Source of the DNA: an uncultured Bacilli bacterium
GTDB lineage: Bacteria > Bacillota_I > Bacilli_A > RF39 > UBA660
Assembly: GCA_947629025.1 (NCBI GenBank)
Contig: CANRCC010000007.1
Span: forward strand, 1-62,069
Direction of reading: 5' to 3'
Length of the DNA: 62,069 nt
The position numbers and the translations under genes are program-made. Below, piece by piece: positions 525 to 61,106 of the stretch. The notes under the pieces were generated by a model. The model was not told the origin of the DNA. It saw only the letters and a program-made list of their open reading frames with translations, and ran no database searches. Each line of letters begins with the position of its first letter. Position 1 is the first letter of the stretch.

Positions 525-554
525 AATATGTAAGTGTGTTTTTTTAATTGACAA
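525..554 (-). promoter_or_regulatory. Shared 30-bp upstream element, copy 1
   Basis: In the minus direction the element reads TTGTCA, about 18 bases, then CATATT, compatible with a -35/-10 pair. The same block, with few changes, lies at 1895-1924 and 54754-54783, each time upstream of an unrelated accessory gene. It probably is the promoter, perhaps with an operator, of the P-loop gene ending at 470. Confidence 0.5.
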
Positions 555-809: not shown

Positions 810-874
810 CGAAAAAGTTTAATCAGATTCTTTAATGATGCCCTAAAGAAAGACGTACAACAATTTTTATTTTT
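810..874. repeat. 65-bp cassette tail repeat, copy 1
   Basis: This block aligns without gaps to 54160-54224, with about 50 of 65 positions equal by eye; conserved cores are CGAAAAAGTT, CTAAAG and AAGACGTA. Both copies lie at or just beyond the stop codon of an unrelated minus-strand accessory gene. Its role is unknown; it could be a recombination site or a conserved 3' end. Confidence 0.6.
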
Positions 875-1841
875 TCAAAGATAGTTGTTTAATTTCTTCT
901 ACTATTTCAAGATCTTTTTGAATCAATGGCCCACTTGAATATTCATAATAAATTTCTAACCCTGTATTTGACATTTTCTTTAACAATTTTAGAGTTTTCT
1001 TATCTATTGATTTTTGCCTTTTCATTTCAGAAATAGTTGAATTTGATATTTTTTTAAACTTCTCTAATCTCCTATCTGTAGTAGAGAGTTTAGATCCTGC
1101 TAATTGCAAATCAAATCTGTTCATAATGTATATAGGATACTTACCATTATTAAAATAAGATATAACTTCTAATAATGTAGGGTTATCGATGCCTAGTAAT
1201 TTACTTAGAACTAAGTTAGTGTTATTTTGGATTTCTCTAGAGATTAGTTCAATTATAACATCATCTGCCATACCACATACTCGAGCTTCTCGCAACTTTC
1301 CAATCAAGTAATATATTTTATAAGTGTTATCAAAAGTACCAAAAGTATCAACAAAAAAATTTATTGTCGAAAAAACTTTGTCTTCAAAATATTTTTTATC
1401 AGTAAATTTATAATTAAAAGATATTTCAGATAATCTCTTTTTAGCGTCTACTTCTCTTAACAAAATTCCTTTTATCATAGATGGTTCTATTTTATAATGC
1501 ACATGTCTTTCATTTGTATAATTGCGCCTATTATTACGGGTTTGTTTTTCCAAAGTAATAATATCATCAATAATAAAACAAATTTTGTTAGTATTAAAAT
1601 CATAAAGCTCATTTTCAATTTGATAATATCTTAAAATCGTTCTTGGAAAATGATTAACACTTATATATTCATTTTTTGTACTAGAATGAGTATAATTACG
1701 ATAATAATATTTGATACTTTCATCAATTGCAGCTTTTTTAGATACTATACCATAAGTTAGTATAGAATAAAATCTTGCAAAATCGATATCTATTGAATGA
1801 TAATAAAACAAATCTATATTTTCATAAGAAATTGATGCCAT
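867..1841 (-). CDS. Hypothetical accessory protein, possible ADP-ribosyltransferase-like fold
   Basis: The protein has 324 residues from the ATG at 1839-1841, chosen because GGGGG lies six bases upstream; a longer frame starting in a homopolymer run is less likely. I do not recognise the family with confidence. The N-terminus has the pattern YYHS...ARFYSILTYGIVS...NEYISV, reminiscent of the His/Gly-Ile-x-Ser signature near the NAD site of DarT-like or DUF4433-like ADP-ribosyltransferases; this is a weak analogy. The C-terminal third is lysine-rich and helical. No signal peptide or membrane segment is visible. The gene stands alone between the tRNA-Leu(UAG) 3' flank and a repeat shared with the Nudix gene cassette, which suggests horizontal acquisition and possibly a defence or stress role. 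Confidence 0.6.
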   Translation of the reverse strand: MASISYENIDLFYYHSIDIDFARFYSILTYGIVSKKAAIDESIKYYYRNYTHSSTKNEYISVNHFPRTILRYYQIENELYDFNTNKICFIIDDIITLEKQTRNNRRNYTNERHVHYKIEPSMIKGILLREVDAKKRLSEISFNYKFTDKKYFEDKVFSTINFFVDTFGTFDNTYKIYYLIGKLREARVCGMADDVIIELISREIQNNTNLVLSKLLGIDNPTLLEVISYFNNGKYPIYIMNRFDLQLAGSKLSTTDRRLEKFKKISNSTISEMKRQKSIDKKTLKLLKKMSNTGLEIYYEYSSGPLIQKDLEIVEEIKQLSLKK

Positions 1842-1894
1842 TTTGACCCCCAAAAAAAAAATTATCATATTTGTCTATGTATAATGATAAAATC

Positions 1895-1924
1895 AATATG
1901 CAACTGTGTTTTCTAAATTAACAA
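1895..1924 (-). promoter_or_regulatory. Shared 30-bp upstream element, copy 2
   Basis: Reads in the minus direction TTGTTA, an 18-base stretch with GAAAACACAG, then TTGCATATT. Equivalent blocks lie at 525-554 and 54754-54783. Likely the promoter of the gene ending at 1841. Confidence 0.5.
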
Positions 1925-10477: not shown

Positions 10478-13400
10478 AAATTTTTTCTACATATTTTACT
10501 AATAATGGTTTACCACGTCTTACTACAAAACAGAAATTACTATCTATATCTTCTTTCATTTCAGGTATTTTTTGAGTTATATTAATTAAGAATTGATCTG
10601 ATATACCACTTCCAAGCCATATACCCTCATTTGGATTAATACTACTCTTATACCATGGTTCATATTCAAATAACTTAATCTTATCCATACTATCAATTAA
10701 TATAAAGCTTAATATATCTAATTCACTTGCAGTTGCAAATAAATCATTTAATTTTGATTGGTTTTCGATAGATAACTTATTTTTAAATGCATTTATTCCT
10801 ATTATTATACAGTAAGTTTTCTTTTGATTTTTAAAAATACTCTTATCAAAATTATTTTGTGTATAAACATTATTACAATCATTAAGATATTTAGTTATTG
10901 TATCAAATATTACATCAAAATTAGAATCTATATATGATAAACTTTCTTTAACTCTATCTTCAATTATAATATCTTCAGCATTTATTATTATTGTATTACA
11001 ATTTTCTTTATAACTAAATTGATATAAGAATGGATTTATAAATGGATTAAATTGATTAAAATCTAAAGTAGTAATAATATTAATATGATTCTTAATAAAA
11101 TCTAGTTTACATACATTAAGACTTGATTTACTTATACCAATAGCAAATTCATTACTAGAAATATCATCTTTTATTTCATTATAATCTACAACTTCTGGAA
11201 GTATAGGTATCTTTTTAGTTCTTTGAGGATATCTCTTTTGTAATTTCTCACTTAAATCCATTACATATTTAGATATTTGTTCTTTAGGGCCTGCTAATGC
11301 TGTTTGAAATTCATATACTGCATCTTTCTTAATTAAACCTCTACCAAATAATTTAGATGGATATGTTTTATTAATGTTACCAAGTATTGCTACATAATCA
11401 TCTTCATTATTTTGTTGCAATACAAATTGTTGTCCAAAGTTTTGTTTTAACTTAAATCTCATACCATCTGCAGTATTACAAGTAAATACAAAATAAATAC
11501 CATATTTTATACAATCTCTTGTAAGTATAATAATTAATTCTTCATAATTTGGATATGTTTCTGCATATGCTTCATAATTATTTATAACAACAACTATATT
11601 TGGAACTGTTTTACCACTATTTTTACAATATGTTACATAATCTCCATTATAATTTGAGAAAAGTTTTTTTCTTTCTTCTATAGTATCAGAAATCATTTTA
11701 AACAAGTTTCTTACCTTTTCTGAATCATTTATATATAGTATGTCACCTACTATTGGTGAAGTATCAAAATATCTAAGTACTTCTGCACCAAAATCTAGAA
11801 TATAATAATTTACTTCTTCTGGTGTATATATAAGCATTGATGAATAAATCATAGTAGTTATAAAGTTTTCCTTACCTGATCCAGCCATACCAAATACTAT
11901 AGCATTTCCTTCTTCTGAAAAAGGTATTGTTAAAAGATGTTGTTGTTGCATATTTGGAACATCATATTCTCCTACTATTGGATTTAATATAAATTTTTCT
12001 TTTGCATAGTTATACTTTCTAAATAGCCCTGGTACTAATATACTATCAGATAATTTCTCAAGCCATAATGGTTTAGTATAAATACTTTCCTTTACTGCAC
12101 AATCAGATAAATATTTAACAATATTTATAAGTTCCTCTCCATGTTTTTCTGAAACCTCTACTTTTTGTTTTGTTTCTATACTTTTAAATACATATCCTAT
12201 ATTGTCTATAAAATTTATTGATGAATCAATTGTTTTTTGAATATTTTCTGATGGAATATATTGTCCACCTGCCCAAGCTGACTGACCTAATACAAATATT
12301 TCATTAAAACCTACTTGAAGATAGAATCTACCTGTTTGTGTTAAATATGCTGCATCAGGACATTGTATAACTTCTGCAGAATCTGCCTTTTCTTGAACCC
12401 TTAAACAAACTCTAAAACGAGTATTACTCCATATTTGTGAATCAACTATACCACTTGGTTTTTGAGTTGCAAGTATTAAATGAACACCTAAACTACGACC
12501 TATTCTCGCAGTACTTATTAATTGTTCCATAAATTCTGGTTGTTGTGTTTTTAACTCTGCAAATTCATCTGCTATTATAAATAAATGAGATACTGGCTCA
12601 TCAACAACATGATTTCTATACATTTTTTGATATTTATATATATCAACTGTACTTTCTCCAGATATTTCCCTTGCTTTATTAAATAGTGCTTGTCTTCTTT
12701 TTAATTCACTTTCTATTGACGCTAATGATCTATTTATTTCGTTCTTATCAAGGTTTGTTATTACACCAACTAAATGTGGTAATTTAATACCAATGTTTTT
12801 ATTTTCAAAAGCACCAGCTAGTCCTCCACCTTTATAGTCAATTAATATAAATTGAACTTCATATGGATGATAATTTATTGCCATTGATAATATATATGTA
12901 ATTATAAACTCAGATTTACCACTACCAGTCATACCAGCAATAAGTCCATGTGGTCCATGAAATTTTTCATGTAAATCTAGGCTTATTTTTTCTCCATTTT
13001 TACCTATACCAACAACCGCATCCATATTAAGTATAGGTACATTTTTATCCCATCTTGAAAGTGCATTTAATTGTTCAACTTTACCAACATCATACATTTC
13101 AAGAAATCCAACCTTTTTAGGTATTGCACCTTCACTATCATCATTTATTTCAATTGGAATATTTGCTAAATTACAAAAACAGTTATGAATATCTATAACA
13201 TTAAAATCAATCTTAAACTTTTGATTTTCGCTGTTTGCTATATTTTTAAATACTTTAGATTCATTTTCATTTAATTCAATAAATGTTTGACATTGATCTG
13301 GCAAATTTGAAATTTTATCATTTAATATTAAAATACTAAACCCTAAATATTTTTTAGATTCGATTATATTCTTAATTAAATCAAAGTTTCTAATCGAACT

Positions 13401-27909: not shown

Positions 27910-30900
27910 TTAAAACAAACTTAATTGACTAGTTTCTGGCATATCACCAAATATACCCATTATACGCATTTTGTCTATTAAAGTACCTGATACTTTACAC
28001 CTGTTTTGAAATTCTTCAATAGATATAAATGGTGATTTTTCTCTTTCTTGTGCTATATTATTTGCTACTGTATCACCTAAACCATCTATTGAGTTAAATG
28101 GTGGAATTATATCTGTTTCATTAATAGCATTATAAGTAGTAGCATTACTCTTATATAAATCTACATTTAAAAATCTTATTCCTCTTGCTGATGCTTCTAA
28201 GCATAGATGAAGAGATTCTCTCATTCCAGCATCTTTGTTAGTAGCATCTCTTCCTTTTTCATCTATTTCAACAATTTTATCTTTAATAGAATCATAACCT
28301 TTTATCATAGAATTAATATCAACATCTGTAGCCTTACAAGAAAGCCAAGATGCATAATAATATACTGGCATATGTACTTTATACCATGCAATTCTAAATG
28401 CACTAGTAACATATGCTGCTGCATGTGCTTTTGGGAACATGTATTTTATTTTATAACAAGAATCTATATACCAAGGTGCAATACCATTTTCTGTTAATAT
28501 TTTTTCATATTCTGCCCATTGTTCTTTATCTTTTGGTTTACTTGCTCTTCCTTTACGAACAAATTCCATTATTTTAAATGCTGTTATTGGTTCAAGTCCA
28601 TTATACATTAGATAAACCATTATATCATCACGACATCCTATTACTTCACTAAATGGTACTATATTATTTTTTATTAATTCTTGTGCATTACCTAGCCATA
28701 CATCTGTACCGTGTGATAAACCAGATATTTTTATAAGTTCTGCAAATGTAGTAGGTTTTGTATCTTCAACCATCTGAATAGTAAATTTTGTACCAAATTC
28801 TGGAATACCAAGTGTACCTGTATTACACATTATTTGTTCTTCTGTTACACCAAGTGGTTTTGGTGATAAAAATATTCCCATTGTTTCTTTATCATCAAGT
28901 GGTACTTTTGATACATCTGTTTTTGTCATATCTTGTATCATACGAAGTTGTGTAGGATCAGAATGTCCTAATATATCTAATTTTAATACATCATCTTCTA
29001 TTTTATGATAATCAAAGTGAGTAGTTCTCCATGCAGAATTTGGATCATCTGCTGGGAATTGATATGGTGTAAAATCAAATACATCCATATAATCTGGAAT
29101 AACTACAATACCTCCTGGATGTTGTCCTGTAGTTCTTTTAACTCCAACACATCCTTTTGATAATCTTTCTATTTCTACTCCTCTTTTATTTATACCTTTA
29201 TCTTCAAAATATCCTTTTGTATATCCATATGCAGTTTTTTCTGCTACTGTACCTATTGTACCTGCTCTATAAACATTATCAACACCAAATAATACTTTAG
29301 TATATTCGTGTATTGCTGCTTGGTTTAAATCAGAAAAGTTAAGATCTATATCTGGTACTTTATCAGCATTAAAACCAAGGAAAGTAGCAAATGGAATATC
29401 TTGTCCATCTTTTATCATATAAGTATTACACTTAGGACATTTCTTATTAGGTAAATCAAATCCACTAGAATAAGTCGCACCAAGTGCTTTTCCATCTTCT
29501 TCAAATATACTATGTTTACATTTTGGACATCTATAATGTGATGGAAGTGGATTAACTTCTGTTATCCCCATCATTGTTGCAACAAAACTAGAACCAACTG
29601 ATCCTCTTGAACCTACTAAGAATCCATCATCATTTGATTTTTTTACTAGTCTTTGTGCAATTAAATAAATTGGATCAAACCCAGCACCTATAACTCCACC
29701 TAAACTCTTCTTTAATTTCTTTTCTAATTCTTCTTCTGTTAAATTTTCTTCAGTAGTATCTTTTAAATATTTTCTTACTAAATCTTTAACTGATGAAGAA
29801 CCCTCTAATATAACATTATGTAATTGTTTATAAGCTTCTATTTCATATTCTTTTTCATCTAAGTTTTTATCTAAATAATATTTAACACTAGTAAATACTA
29901 TATCTCCATAAAGTTCAACACCAAGTCTATTTTCAATATTATATGGAAGAGGATCTCCATACCATTCTTTTGCTTTATCATAAACAAGATCAGTTACAAC
30001 TCTAGGACAATCAAGATAAGTTTCTCCATCATCTGCTTTTACTCTTGGAGAAAATGGTACCCCTCCTGTTTGAACAATTACATCAAATATTTCTACCATA
30101 TCAAGAATTTTATTTGTATTTGTAACAACTATCTTTTTAGCAACATCTTTTCCTAAAAATTCAAATGAATCAAGCATTTCTTTAGTTGTCCTAAAATGTT
30201 GTGATGGAATATTTGAACCTTTACTATTTCTAATAAGTGGATGTCTACCTCTACCAGGAACATTTTGATTAATTATTATTTCTCTATAAATTTTATCTTC
30301 TTTTCTTAAATGATGAACATCTCCTGTTGCGACTATTATTTTTCCAGTTTCTTCTGTAACTCTTACTACCTTTTCAATATTTTGTATTACTTGCGCTTCA
30401 TTTTCAAAAACACTTGGAACTAAGTGACAATATTCATCTACTGGTTGTACTTCTACATAATCATAAAATTTAATTATATTAGCAAGTTCCTCATCACTTT
30501 TTGTAGATGCTGATGTAAATACCTCACTTTGGTAACAACCACTACCAATTAATAATCCATCTCTATATTTTTCTACTTCACTTCTAAGTATTCTTGGCGT
30601 TTTATATAAATACTTTGTATTAGCAAAAGATATAAGTTTAAATATATTTTTTAAACCTTTATGATTTAAAGTTAAAATATTTATATCATGAGTTTTACCA
30701 TATTTATGTATTTCATCTTTTGGTACTAAATTATTTAATTCACTAATTTTTCTAAAATTTTGGTCATACATTTTCTTTAGCATTTTATGTAATACGTATG
30801 CTGTTCCCTCAGCATCATAATTAGCTCTATGGTGTGCATCTTCATCAAATACTACTCCATATCTTTTTGTAATTGCTGAAAGAGAATGTCTTGCTTCTGT

Positions 30901-46096: not shown

Positions 46097-46615
46097 TTAC
46101 AAAACTGTATTTATCCAGTTTTCAATTTCATTTTTTGAATTATAAACATTACTTCCATAAATTGCACAGCCATCTTTTACATCTGCATTATTACATATTT
46201 TTTTAATTTCGGATACACAATTACCTAAGCCACTACCCTCATGTGTTGTAAATGGCATTATAATCTTACCATCAAAATTTAATTTTTCAAGCTGAGTATA
46301 CATAGCCATTGGAGGATAACCCCACCAAACTGGAGTTCCTATATATATTATATCATAATCATCTATATTGTCTAAGTAATTAACAAGATTTGGCCTTTTA
46401 TTTTCATTTAATTCTTGTTTAGCTACATCGCAACATTCTTTATAACTATATGGATACTTTTTAATAGGCTGAACTCTAAATAAATCAGCATTTGTAATAT
46501 CTTTTATAAATTCTGCCACTACTTCAGTATTACCTTTATCTATATTTCTTATTCCATCTGACATATAATTTTCTCCAGTATGTGAAAAATATATAACTAA
46601 GCTTTTTCTATCCAC
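46097..46615 (-). CDS. Flavodoxin-like protein (GTG start)
   Basis: It has 172 residues. The start is GTG at 46613-46615 with AAGGATG upstream; an overlapping ATG is out of frame. VIYFSHTGENY gives the FMN phosphate loop, and IYIGTPVWWGYPPMAM and FTTHEGSGLGN line the flavin ring. It carries electrons under iron limitation or serves as a reductase partner. Operon with DUF362. Confidence 0.88.
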   Translation of the reverse strand: MDRKSLVIYFSHTGENYMSDGIRNIDKGNTEVVAEFIKDITNADLFRVQPIKKYPYSYKECCDVAKQELNENKRPNLVNYLDNIDDYDIIYIGTPVWWGYPPMAMYTQLEKLNFDGKIIMPFTTHEGSGLGNCVSEIKKICNNADVKDGCAIYGSNVYNSKNEIENWINTVL

Positions 46616-46894: not shown

Positions 46895-46978
46895 ATGAAT
46901 AAGAAGGATTTTTTAATTCTATCTTTAATCATTCTTATCTTCCTATTAGTATTATTACTATTTATAGTTTTAATATAA
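46895..46978 (+). CDS. 27-residue hydrophobic peptide, candidate type I toxin
   Basis: The peptide begins MNKKDFLILSLIILIF and continues as one uninterrupted Leu/Ile/Val membrane helix to the stop. GGGAGG lies seven bases before the ATG, a strong ribosome site. Upstream is a LexA-boxed promoter and a 55-base leader; downstream a terminator hairpin overlaps a convergent antisense RNA. This is the arrangement of the TxpA/BsrG and holin-like-toxin type I systems of Bacillota, and of SOS-controlled TisB in E. coli, which damage membrane potential. The peptide sequence itself does not match a family I can name. Confidence 0.75.
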   Translation: MNKKDFLILSLIILIFLLVLLLFIVLI

Positions 46979-47085
46979 AAGAAAATCACCTAACTCAGCA
47001 ATGATTTAGGTGATGCACATTATATGGCAACACTCAACATGCGATATTGAATGTTCCCTTTTTATTTTATTCAAGTTTCCTTGAC
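46977..47085 (-). ncRNA. Antisense antitoxin RNA
   Basis: Promoter TTGCAA (rc of 47115-47120), 17 bases, TATTAT (rc of 47092-47097) drives transcription toward the toxin. The RNA would overlap the 3' end of the toxin mRNA, pass the shared hairpin at 47029-47055 and end at hairpin ATCACCTAA/TTAGGTGAT (46985-47014) followed by TTTCTTTT. The RNA is about 110 bases. The promoter spacing is conserved in the second copy at 763-791. Confidence 0.6.
47029..47063 (+). terminator. Toxin mRNA terminator
   Basis: AACACTCAACAT and ATATTGAATGTT pair with two mismatches around GCG, followed by CCC and a five-T run. Confidence 0.65.
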
Positions 47086-47106
47086 ATATTCATAATAACA
47101 TAAAAA

Positions 47107-47124
47107 CGACTCTTTTGCAAGTCG
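47107..47124 (-). terminator. tRNA-Met terminator overlapping the antitoxin promoter
   Basis: CGACTTGCAAAAGAGTCG followed by TTTTT in the minus direction. The antitoxin -35 hexamer (TTGCAA) lies in this hairpin, so the two functions share bases. Confidence 0.6.
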
Positions 47125-47164
47125 CCTTTTACTATACTTGAAAAATCCAAGTTTCCTATCAATC

Positions 47165-47241
47165 TGGTAGCGACGGGGGGATTCGAACCCTCGACCCTTC
47201 GGGTATGAACCGAATGCTCTAGCCAACTGAGCTACATCGCC
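47165..47241 (-). tRNA. tRNA-Met, elongator (anticodon CAU)
   Basis: A 77-base tRNA with encoded CCA; acceptor GGCGATG pairs with CGTCGCT (one G-T), anticodon arm TTCGG-TTCATAC-CCGAA. The body follows the elongator Met tRNA of Bacillota (GGCTAGAGC, GGTTCGAATCC). An open frame running through it (DVAQLARAF...) is the well-known spurious translation of this tRNA. Confidence 0.92.
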
Positions 47242-53207: not shown

Positions 53208-53999
53208 CTACTTCATTCTTTTTGATAATATTTGTTCTTCGTCTGTTTTAGTAGATTGTAATACTTCTTGCTCTTCTAATAGTTGAATTCTTAAGCGCTG
53301 TAATGCTTGTTTTTGTTCTTCTGCTAATTTTTCTTGTGTTATACCTTTTATTTTTAAATAGTCAATTAAAAATGATATATCATATTTTTCATCTATATTA
53401 TATGGATTTTTTTCTATCTCTTTTTCATCGTTTTCACTATCATTTAAATCTATACTTGTATTAATTTTTAAAGCATCAGCAACCATTTTCTTTTGTTCTT
53501 CAATAGTTAATCTAGATGCGTAACCGCTAACTTTTAAAATATTAATATCATTTAACGATTCATCAATTTCATAATAAATCTCACTATGTTTATTACCATT
53601 ATTAATTTGGACGGAGTCTGCTTCTGACAATATTAGTTCTGATTTTAATTGTATGATTACGGCATTTAACATTGTTGGATTTTTTAAATATTCTTTTTTT
53701 TCGATTTCTGACATTTCTTCTAAAGCATCCATTATTCTGAACTGATCTAGAATAGTTATTCTAATATTATTGTATTTCATTGCTCTTTGAAATGCCTGCA
53801 TTAAATTAAATATTGGTATTAACATTGATTGAAATATAATCTTTGATGCATTTGGATTTAAGTTTTCAAATTCCGATAATCTTGTTGTATTAACTTTATA
53901 TCCAGCATCTGCAACATCTTTAAATACTCTAAATTCATTTATTATTTCCATACCAAAACTTGCAACAATTGTTCCTAACCATAAAGTTAAAAATTACAT
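53208..53999 (-). pseudogene. Membrane-anchored hypothetical protein with a stop at codon 2
   Basis: The best ribosome site (AAAAGGAGA) precedes an ATG at 53997-53999, but the next codon is TAA (53994-53996). In the same frame the following codons give FLTLWLGTIVASFGMEIINE, a natural N-terminal membrane helix, continuing without break for 261 residues. The internal ATG at 53949-53951 has no ribosome site. A single change such as AAA to TAA at codon 2 would explain this. The soluble part (PNASKIIFQSMLIPIFNLMQ, ILDQFRIMDALEEMSEIEKK, coiled-coil end) belongs to no family I can name. If translation restarts at 53951 a 247-residue product without anchor results. Confidence 0.65.
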
Positions 54000-54078
54000 A
54001 ATAGATTCTCCTTTTTAAATTAGTTATTATTCTAACACATTTACAAACTATTATCAAATACAATTTACCAAATAGTTA

Positions 54079-54151
54079 TTTTGACAAAATAATTAACCCC
54101 TAGGTATTTTGACACAAGTGTAAAAATAACCTAAGGGATTATCTTTTTTAT
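54079..54151 (-). repeat. Palindromic upstream repeat, copy 1
   Basis: A 24-base imperfect inverted repeat (54094-54115 and 54119-54141) flanked by conserved AT-rich sequence. A related block of about the same length lies at 55421-55496. Each copy stands 40-100 bases before the start of a minus-strand accessory gene. Here the arms still pair well. Confidence 0.55.
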
Positions 54152-54159
54152 ATTAAGTC

Positions 54160-54224
54160 CGAAAAAGTTCAAATAGATTCGTCACTGGTACGCTAAAGGA
54201 AGACGTAAGGCAACTTTTATTTTT
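54160..54224. repeat. 65-bp cassette tail repeat, copy 2
   Basis: Ungapped relative of 810-874. It ends four bases before the stop of the Nudix gene. Confidence 0.6.
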
Positions 54225-54228
54225 ATAA

Positions 54229-54714
54229 TTATTTATTTAAATTATATTTATTAATAGTTTTAATCAAATATTTACAACTATCACTTACTTTGTCTGATTT
54301 TGTAGCTTCATTATATTTAAAAAAATGATAACCTTTGCATTTTGTTGGTTCCATAACTTTAATATTACCATTAATATATTTAGCAAAATAAATTACAAAT
54401 AACCAATTAGTATCATTTTTAAAACTATGAAAAATTCCAATTGAATCACTAAATTCTAAATTAATTTCTTCTCCTGCTTCTTCTTTTACTTCACGAATAA
54501 TTGCTGATTTAAAGTTTGAATCTTCTGGATCAACCTTTCCACCAATATCTTCAAATAAACCATTTTCATCACGTGATTTTTCCCCTCTTTGTTGTAAAAG
54601 TATTTCTCCATCAGAGTTTTCTATATGAACAATTACTCCTATTTTTTGGTTAGGAAAATTAAATTTTTCTAAATCTTTAAAAGTTGCTTCATGATTTAAT
54701 AAATAAAAATGCAT
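54229..54714 (-). CDS. Nudix hydrolase
   Basis: It has 161 residues from the ATG at 54712-54714 with AGGTGG. The Nudix box is present with one extra residue in its first loop: GGKVDPEDS at 59-67 and REVKEEAGEEI at 74-84, containing the REUxEExGU core that binds metal. Such enzymes remove diphosphates from nucleotide derivatives; the C-terminus (FVIYFAKYINGNI) is ordinary. Its flanks, the 30-bp element at 54754-54783 and the 65-bp tail at 54160-54224, are shared with the unrelated gene at 867-1841. Confidence 0.85.
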   Translation of the reverse strand: MHFYLLNHEATFKDLEKFNFPNQKIGVIVHIENSDGEILLQQRGEKSRDENGLFEDIGGKVDPEDSNFKSAIIREVKEEAGEEINLEFSDSIGIFHSFKNDTNWLFVIYFAKYINGNIKVMEPTKCKGYHFFKYNEATKSDKVSDSCKYLIKTINKYNLNK

Positions 54715-54753
54715 TATCAGTACCACCTATCTAATATACATATTGGTATTGGC

Positions 54754-54783
54754 AATATGCAAGTATGTTTTCTATCTTTACAA
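54754..54783 (-). promoter_or_regulatory. Shared 30-bp upstream element, copy 3
   Basis: Minus direction: TTGTAA, a stretch with GAAAACATAC, then TTGCATATT. See copies at 525-554 and 1895-1924. Confidence 0.5.
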
Positions 54784-54792
54784 GTATTTTTC

Positions 54793-54820
54793 CGAGTTTG
54801 GTATTTATCTGGTACGAGTG
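54793..54820. repeat. Degenerate copy of the tRNA-Leu(CAA) 3' flank
   Basis: Matches 55709-55736, which covers the terminator arm and 3' end of tRNA-Leu(CAA), at 22 of 28 positions including an unbroken CGAGTTTGGTAT. The GNAT gene lies exactly between the two, as expected if an insertion at the tRNA end duplicated the site. Confidence 0.5.
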
Positions 54821-54826
54821 AAATAA

Positions 54827-55399
54827 TTATTTACAACTTTTACCATTAAAATATTCTTCTCTAGTTATCGAATAAGATATTAAATCATTTCTTTTGTTAT
54901 CTTTATCAACAACTCTGCTTCTTAATATACCCTCATATTTCATTCCTGATTTTTTCATAACTTTGCCACTTGCTGGATTATTACTCATATATTCTGCACA
55001 GATTAATTCTGCATCAGCTTCTTCAAATAAATATTTTATAACAGCTTTCAAAGATTCTGTTGCATATCCTTTATTCCAAAATTCATCTCCATAACAATAT
55101 CCAATTTCACATGTTCCATACTTTAAAAATTTGGTTGATACATCAATAGTACCAATTACTTCTTTATTTTCTTTTAATTCAACAATCCATCTAAAAGTTT
55201 TTGGATTTTCATATTCTAAAACCCAATTTTCATATTGTTTTAGAGTTATATCAACAGTTTCATGCTTTTTCCACAAAACATATTTATCTACATTATCTTT
55301 GTTGCACCAATTCTTAAAAGCATTATAAGCATCTTCTATAGTCAACTTTCTTAATAATAATCTATTTGTTTCTATATTTTTTGTTCCTATGTATTTCAT
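54827..55399 (-). CDS. GNAT-family N-acetyltransferase (RimJ/RimL type)
   Basis: It has 190 residues from the ATG at 55397-55399, for which GGAG lies nine bases upstream. Motifs: IETNRLLLRKLTIEDAYNAF, EIGYCYGDEFWNKGYATESL (acetyl-CoA loop) and NPASGKVMKKSGMKYEGILR. These enzymes acetylate ribosomal proteins, antibiotics or small amines; the closest general look is RimL or streptothricin-like enzymes, not certain. It lies in a probable insertion bounded by tRNA-Leu 3'-flank copies. Confidence 0.85.
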   Translation of the reverse strand: MKYIGTKNIETNRLLLRKLTIEDAYNAFKNWCNKDNVDKYVLWKKHETVDITLKQYENWVLEYENPKTFRWIVELKENKEVIGTIDVSTKFLKYGTCEIGYCYGDEFWNKGYATESLKAVIKYLFEEADAELICAEYMSNNPASGKVMKKSGMKYEGILRSRVVDKDNKRNDLISYSITREEYFNGKSCK

Positions 55400-55420
55400 A
55401 TATCTCATCTCCATAACAAT

Positions 55421-55687: not shown

Positions 55688-55715
55688 AAAACTCGAACTA
55701 TAATAGTACGAGTTT
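55688..55715 (-). terminator. tRNA-Leu(CAA) terminator
   Basis: AAACTCG and CGAGTTT pair around an AT-rich loop and are followed by TAAAATG in the minus direction; near copy of 1974-2002. Confidence 0.6.
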
Positions 55716-55725
55716 GGTATCAACC

Positions 55726-55811
55726 TGGTGCGGGAGATGGGACTTGAACCCACACAACTAAAAGTTAAAGGTGTTTGAGACCTTCGCGTCTACCAATTCC
55801 GCCACTCCCGC
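55726..55811 (-). tRNA. tRNA-Leu (anticodon CAA)
   Basis: An 86-base type II tRNA with encoded CCA; acceptor GCGGGAG/CTCCCGC, anticodon arm AAGGT-CTCAAAC-ACCTT, long variable arm AACTTTTAGTT. Its own promoter overlaps the terminator of the gat operon (TTGAAA at rc 55842-55847, 16 bases, TATAAT at rc 55820-55825). Confidence 0.95.
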
Positions 55812-60841: not shown

Positions 60842-61106
60842 AATATCCTCCCTAACTAAATAAAAAACAGTTATTATATCCCAAATAAGGGACGAATAAC
60901 TGTTAAATCCGTGGTACCACCCAAATTATCATATTTCTATGATCACTCTTTTGAATAACGCATCAATATCGCGCTTCTTCCTACTATTATTTCAAAAGAA
61001 GAACTCCTTGGTGTTCTTTCATATTAATATTATTATCCATTTTCACCATTTAGGACTCTCTGTAAATAAATCTTAATATTACTTTTCCAAATCAACGTTT
61101 TTGACT
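60842..61106 (-). promoter_or_regulatory. T-box riboswitch, Asn specifier (AAC)
   Basis: The antiterminator sequence GGGTGGTACCACGG (rc of 60909-60922) is the T-box core. The terminator AACAGTTATT/AATAACTGTT with a T run is at 60862-60906. In Stem I the AGAGAG bulge, GGTGAAA distal loop and an AGTA/GAA loop-E pair can be seen; the specifier loop ends GAACA just before CCAA, which pairs with TTGG. The codon followed by A is AAC (rc of 61013-61015). The overlapping GAA could be a second codon, as reported for a clostridial two-codon T-box. Confidence 0.85.

Follow-up and report, generated by a model that had tools for sequence, protein, structure and literature searches.

How do two genes with unrelated products come to share both their upstream and their downstream sequences? 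The question is raised by a 62,069-nucleotide contig of an uncultured Bacilli bacterium (CANRCC010000007.1; the whole stretch is referred to here as the window), in which an orphan gene and a gene for a Nudix hydrolase lie in the same frame. A sequence-only reading had seen in them swappable cargo with the logic of integron cassettes, set next to a tRNA-Leu gene in both cases. The upstream elements (1895-1924 and 54754-54783) and the tails (810-874 and 54160-54224) are indeed there; the former are similar in pattern and the latter have a mean column identity of 84%. A third copy of the upstream element was recognized at 525-542 (minus strand) from its similarity to the other two. Across the genome, the upstream pattern gave 16 matches, as opposed to none with the reversed control, and about 11 of the 16 fall in leaders of the cassettes described below; the tail sequence recurs beside matches to this pattern elsewhere in the genome. 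The elements shared by the orphan and Nudix genes are not due to chance. The window's genome amounts to 1.12 Mb in 36 contigs and is 91% complete; most of the sequences compared in this work are draft metagenome assemblies.

Three arrays behind tRNA genes

The features of all three arrays lie on the minus strand. The first array follows a tRNA-Leu(tag) gene (2012-2096, identified by ARAGORN), whose 3' end, CACCA, closes the left half (2012-2043) of an attachment (att) site scoring 51.2 against a best value of 9.0 among reversed controls. The right half of the site (1988-2011; GATTGATAGAAAACTCGAACTTTT, type I by weight-matrix score) opens cassette 1 with a motif that also occurs after about 90 tRNA or tmRNA genes. 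A terminator scan placed a hairpin derived from this arm (AAAACTCGAAC..GTTCGAGTTTT; 1974-2002) behind the tRNA, with a computed RNA fold of −15.2 kcal/mol and a z score of −4.8. Across 14 leaders the helix is 98.6% paired and shows one compensatory change, and the type I right arm is predicted to double as a transcription terminator behind the tRNA. The leader segment containing the 30-bp element (1894-1931; delimited by genome pattern matches and aligned copies) comes next. Many aligned copies of the element hold an inverted repeat, TTGTCAAT-N19-ATTGACAA; it appears to be promoter- or operator-like and may serve as a promoter.

The cargo of cassette 1 is a 333-aa orphan protein. The gene had been called at 867-1841; the gene stands, but the ORF extends from 867 to 1868 on the minus strand, the strand that also carries the Nudix gene. 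Its product matches no Pfam, PHROG or NCBIfam model and has no homologue among 116 other genomes of the family. The left arm of the cassette (836-867), defined by alignment of tails and by att scan, ends with GGGCATCA, a variant of GGGCACCA, and abuts a right half of a second type (812-835; TTAAAGAATCTGATTAAACTTTTT, type II by att scan) which opens the next cassette and is the same half that precedes the clade II serine recombinases described below. From this half a leader of another kind, type C, continues to about position 690; it is followed by the third copy of the upstream element and by an AAA-type ATPase gene (3-473; Pfam AAA_14, 1.6e-5, below cut-off) truncated by the contig end.

The second array starts at a tRNA-Leu(caa) gene (55726-55811, ARAGORN; left half-site 55726-55757, att score 40.0). 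Here a type I right half found by att scan (55702-55725) opens a cassette for a GNAT acetyltransferase (54827-55414; Pfam Acetyltransf_3, 6.5e-30), which closes at an internal att junction (54786-54841, att scan) made of a tail (54810-54841; AAAAGTTGTAAATAATTATTTCACTCGTACCA) and a further type I right half (54786-54809). The Nudix cassette follows, with its upstream element (54753-54783, exact genome pattern match) and gene (54229-54726; Pfam NUDIX, 3.9e-15), and ends at a second junction (54162-54217; tail alignment and att scan) in which the left arm (54186-54217) meets a type II right half (54162-54185). The ORF list and profile searches point to a likely third cargo, a 247-aa protein of no family (53208-53951). 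In array 3, a tRNA-Met gene ending in TACCA (47165-47241, tRNA scan; att score 35.4) is followed by a type I right half (47141-47164, att scan) opening a type C leader, and the probable cargo is a flavodoxin-like protein (46097-46615; NCBIfam PRK06934, 5.3e-38, below cut-off).

These coordinates recast part of the initial description. The 65-bp tail is real as sequence but is not a single element: in both arrays a cassette's own left arm, ending in CACCA, is joined there to the right arm with which the next cassette opens. Likewise, adjacency to tRNA-Leu holds for the orphan gene, which is in the first cassette after tRNA-Leu(tag), but not for the Nudix gene, which is second after tRNA-Leu(caa) with the GNAT cassette in between. 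No special role attaches to tRNA-Leu, as genes for tRNA-Ala, -Arg, -Glu, -Lys, -Met, -Thr, -Phe and -Gly and for tmRNA are also used.

Several further sequences were recorded in the same regions. The type C leader (GTCAAGGAAACTTG..AAAAAAGGA plus a hairpin) is present at 640-760 and 46900-47160 of the window and at 10700-10960 of another stretch, L038. It looks like a conserved RNA leader; the copy compared with Rfam gave no family, only sub-threshold noise, and the tail and leader had no Rfam match at gathering level. A long inverted repeat, CCCCTTAGGTCATTTTGATA..TCAAAATACCTAGGGG, is present in leaders behind type II arms (54060-54160 of the window; about 9450-9530 of L038). Outside the arrays, the window carries a T-box leader on the minus strand (60885-61104; Rfam RF00230, 132 bits) and, between 10476 and 32562, three ORFs of about 1530-1550 aa separated by runs of ORFs of about 100 aa, a set whose layout resembles a secretion or surface system.

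Attachment sites and the cassettes between them

Nearly every array lies directly downstream of a tRNA or tmRNA gene, on the same strand. The type I leader begins at the base following the encoded CCA with GATTGATANNAAACTCG, behind many types of tRNA and in many genera; in the type II right arm the motif AATCTGTTCGAAC occupies position +7 and corresponds to the second half of the tail as first described. A weight-matrix scan of 204 kb of genome stretches identified about 25 att sites, the best real score being 51 and the best reversed control 9.0; the sites at tRNA and tmRNA genes begin their right half exactly behind the CCA. An exact search of GTDB contigs returned at least 114 stretches with the type I motif, under record titles naming Bacilli, Tenericutes and other groups, many from gut samples. 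About two thirds of these lie behind a tRNA or tmRNA gene and the remainder behind other left arms ending in CACCA, although, CACCA having been fixed in the search, the result is no guide to which tRNA ends can serve. With up to two mismatches permitted, 64 of the 117 genomes from the window's family contained the type I pattern, against none of 79 from other families of the class.

In alignment, left-right junctions are 55-57 bp long and symmetric, the arms AAAAGTT..AACTTTT flanking a centre at the CA of CACCA. An attP site of a large serine recombinase would be expected to span about 50-56 bp with inverted half-sites, and its attB to have the motif displaced towards the centre. At tRNA sites the motif lies 4 bp closer to the centre than in the left-right junctions, close to but not equal to the corresponding shift between the attP and attB sites of LI integrase, which is 5 bp (PMC3783163). 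Two other ideas about the sites were discarded. A tRNA-like fold of the left arms failed as a general feature, as acceptor/T-arm mimics fold in some arms and are absent from others, and the three pattern matches found in viral contigs, considered as possible phage carriage, all lack a CACCA junction. Single-strand transposition of the HUH/IS200 kind, using hairpin ends and a CACCA target, would accommodate hairpin-like arms and a short common target. We consider it highly improbable: a site is preceded by a complete tRNA 3' end or left arm and not by just any CACCA, the 85 first cargo genes compared yielded a single Y1_Tnp match, which showed no link to the arrays, and linkage to serine recombinases explains more.

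Taking as a unit the DNA between neighbouring att sites, 18 bounded cassettes of 624-2129 bp, those of the orphan and Nudix genes among them, were delimited in the 204 kb of stretches covered from the window's genome, all in the orientation of the tRNA. With a threshold of at least 60 aa, 16 of them contain one ORF and two contain two; they are flanked by att sites and have no integration or transfer genes, which is the structure of cis-mobilizable elements (CIMEs). The tmRNA array alone comprises nine att sites. The 104 first genes after att sites fall into 77 unrelated families, including GNAT, Nudix, HD, deformylase, transglutaminase, radical SAM and KilA-N proteins and many orphans. A KilA-N-like regulator (PHROG 2657) is recurrent as a cassette gene (L154, L174, L201, L248 and L327); in L327 the 30-bp element and then a second gene come directly after it. 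Elsewhere in the window's genome (G000), at positions 28919 and 33531 of contig C8 (L046, L274), att-like sites lie about 3.5-8 kb downstream of tRNA-Thr, near a transglutaminase gene whose product is 66% identical to that of a cassette on C3. The search of the genome and its relatives thus found the elements bracketing single genes, not scattered as common unrelated intergenic repeats, and the notion of swappable cargo in a conserved frame beside tRNA genes is borne out.

Near-identical cassettes were found at different tRNA genes. Within one genome, units at the tRNA-Ala and tmRNA genes share 92% identity from one bounding CACCA to the other, with unrelated sequence beyond both ends. A transglutaminase cassette occurs in two species, each time behind a different tRNA-Arg gene, and its proteins are 98.4% identical; SmpB identity between members of the genus, the species that share this cassette included, is about 82%. 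Other units or genes are common to different genomes at 85-98% identity, several of them at different tRNA sites. The tmRNA site itself is empty in one genome (G006), holds cassette arrays in two (G000 and G003), a decayed recombinase in another (G007) and an autonomous element in yet another (G010).

Could the genes simply have been exchanged by homologous recombination between conserved flanks, with no dedicated enzyme? Some boundaries suggest as much: in L327 and L249 homology begins at the 30-bp element and not at the att arm, and in L215 the gene alone is shared. These cases indicate that ordinary homologous recombination also contributes. As the general explanation it is quite unlikely, since boundaries fall at CACCA with unrelated DNA beyond, insertions occur at unrelated tRNA genes, empty sites exist, and recombinases and arms co-segregate as shown next.

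Recombinases and the origin of the cassettes

Autonomous elements occupy the same sites as the cassettes. They consist of an att site, a gene for an 89-aa protein, a gene for a CcrB-like large serine recombinase, a Mob_Pre relaxase gene, cargo and a left arm; in L218, L313, L316 and L317 the recombinase and Mob_Pre genes, that is, integrase and relaxase of the element's own, are found on one integrated element. The recombinase has the make-up used here to define a large serine recombinase, namely a Resolvase N-terminal domain, a Recombinase domain and a zinc ribbon in about 450-650 aa (Pfam; the zinc ribbon below cut-off), and it matches the TP901-1 integrase. Its score against the NCBIfam CcrB model (9e-39; 133.5 bits for a cut-off of 900) marks it as related to CcrB without being a member.

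Recombinase homologues were searched for in relatives independently of att sites. Among those with at least 40% identity, 12 of 15 have a tRNA or tmRNA gene upstream of them (in one case at 2 kb), compared with one of nine weaker homologues (Fisher p ~0.002). In the recombinase tree, type I arms accompany all eight members of clade I. Wherever a tRNA junction was readable for a clade II member, its arm is of type II, except in one divergent case (L292); another clade II member (L315) sits behind a separate type I cassette. The association of clade with arm type has a Fisher p of 1.6e-4, uncorrected for relatedness. The type of left arm did not serve as a second marker, as clade II elements end in either kind. 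Two cargo ORFs considered as Resolvase matches (L191 and L220) are other proteins; the recombinase loci were located by direct search. The 89-aa protein is conserved between att site and recombinase (L172, L223, L230 and others). Its structural model (pLDDT 88) gave no Foldseek match with E below 0.001 and a best VIA Z of 7.0, within the usual background; it is possibly a directionality factor.

In the window's genome, at 91% completeness, the homologue search found no clade I or clade II recombinase, implying that the enzyme acts from elsewhere, was lost, or is missing from the assembly. Two serine recombinases on contigs C22 and C5 (L272, L273) belong to different clades, both outside I and II, and no tRNA gene lies within the stretches examined around them. 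The genome has just two tyrosine recombinases, read from sequence and context as a XerC/XerD-like pair, which is present in all eight members of the genus. This bears on whether the arrays are true integrons, in which a tyrosine integrase acts on attC-like hairpins. Like integron cassettes and CALINs, the units carry single genes in one orientation with one site each, form arrays, hold similar cargo of the GNAT and Nudix type, and occur with no integrase in the same genome. Yet the only tyrosine recombinases are the Xer-like pair, the arms run GTT..AAC (aligned as AAAAGTT .. AACTTTT plus CACCA) and not in the attC order (RYYYAAC .. GTTRRRY), many tRNA genes act as landing sites, and every cassette brings its own promoter-like leader. 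Where integrons rely on a tyrosine recombinase, attC and attI, the cassettes would rely on a serine recombinase, near-symmetric duplex att sites and tRNA ends. True integrons are thus very unlikely here; the arrays work like integron arrays but differ in integrase and site, and are not integrons. What the sequence-only reading had missed is the tRNA end as recombination site, the right arm of the next cassette within the tail, and the likely enzyme, serine rather than the tyrosine recombinase of integrons.

We postulate that the units are non-autonomous gene cassettes which a serine integrase mobilises and which pile up at the 3' ends of tRNA genes, an explanation to which we assign a probability of somewhat under four in five. 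Each unit would consist of a right att arm, a leader with terminator and promoter-like segment, usually one gene, and a left arm ending in CACCA. Insertion at the CCA end of a tRNA or tmRNA gene would take place in a single orientation and build up arrays, most likely through a CcrB-like large serine recombinase from autonomous integrative mobilizable elements at the same sites. In a cassette circle, attP would be the joined left-right site, about 56 bp long, near-symmetric and with the CA of CACCA at its centre; attB would have as its left part the T-arm and 3' end of the tRNA. Integration would leave the tRNA intact, as everything up to CCA is either kept or carried in with the cassette; the right arm would then terminate transcription behind the tRNA and the promoter-like segment drive the cargo gene. 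On this account the recombinase performs the joining, circles exist, and cassettes move in trans or together with autonomous elements, all of which we infer. The growth of arrays needs explaining, since hybrid sites of the attL/attR type are not normally recombined by serine integrases unaided.

The cassettes might instead be decayed, cis-mobilizable versions of the integrative mobilizable elements, having lost their mobility genes and kept the att ends around a leftover gene. Consistent with such an origin, their att ends are the same as those of autonomous elements, decayed recombinases occur at the same sites (the tmRNA gene of G007), and elements without integration genes have been described in Dehalococcoides (PMC3146451) and in streptococci (PMC5704250). 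Set against this, random decay should not yield exactly one forward ORF in 16 of 18 units, unrelated cassettes have the leader segment in common, and whole single-gene units recur at different tRNA sites. We judge this origin doubtful, though our confidence in it overlaps with that in mobilised cassettes because both use the same enzyme. The fullest form of the cassette explanation, a "serine integron", holds that throughout the family many tRNA 3' ends act as places where single genes, packaged with a standard leader and att arm, are gathered, traded and expressed, the integrase being provided in trans by mobilizable elements; we offer it tentatively, at rather less than even odds.

Related systems and biological meaning

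The nearest relatives by mechanism are the Dehalococcoides ssrA islands, SCC elements and the accretion of streptococcal CIMEs and IMEs. The Dehalococcoides islands have a CcrB-like serine integrase, DsiB, target the tmRNA gene and stand in tandem, several units having no integration module (PMC3146451), features all paralleled here. They differ in that ssrA is their sole target, and in being multi-gene, with a 20-bp repeat and an insertion inferred to be in the T-loop (PMC3146451), whereas the cassettes use many tRNA genes besides tmRNA, have their junction at CCA, span 0.6-2 kb with mostly one gene, and carry a leader of their own. In addition, the islands carry a DsiA/DsiB module, and the autonomous elements described here one recombinase plus the 89-aa partner. 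In streptococci, elements without mobility genes are stacked by site-specific recombination beside mobilizable elements (PMC5704250), much as in our arrays. Among those IMEs, though, tRNA genes are targeted by tyrosine integrases, the site-specific serine enzymes insert within protein genes, and no single-gene cassettes in a shared frame are described (PMC5704250). SCC elements (CcrA/B/C) resemble the arrays in their CcrB-kind serine recombinase, in stacking at the 3' end of a gene and in including elements without a recombinase. Unlike the cassettes, they target one protein gene, rlmH, and are tens of kb long.

The open literature searched yielded papers on the Dehalococcoides islands, on CIMEs and on Islander, and none describing a tRNA-end cassette system. 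There is a real chance that the system merits a separate name. According to the Islander paper, no serine integrases are known to have tRNA genes as targets (PMC4383910), a statement on which the arrays bear. The recombinase/arm pairs of the two clades are directly testable and could yield integrases that land at tRNA ends.

Integrons, which depend on a tyrosine integrase, are the textbook bacterial route for gathering single genes. If our explanation is true, the trading of cassettes by a serine integrase would be convergent with them, and cassette exchange would have had more than one evolutionary origin, here in gut bacteria that have small genomes and are known chiefly through metagenomics. 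New functions could be sought in their arrays, where the 333-aa gene is one example of orphan cargo.
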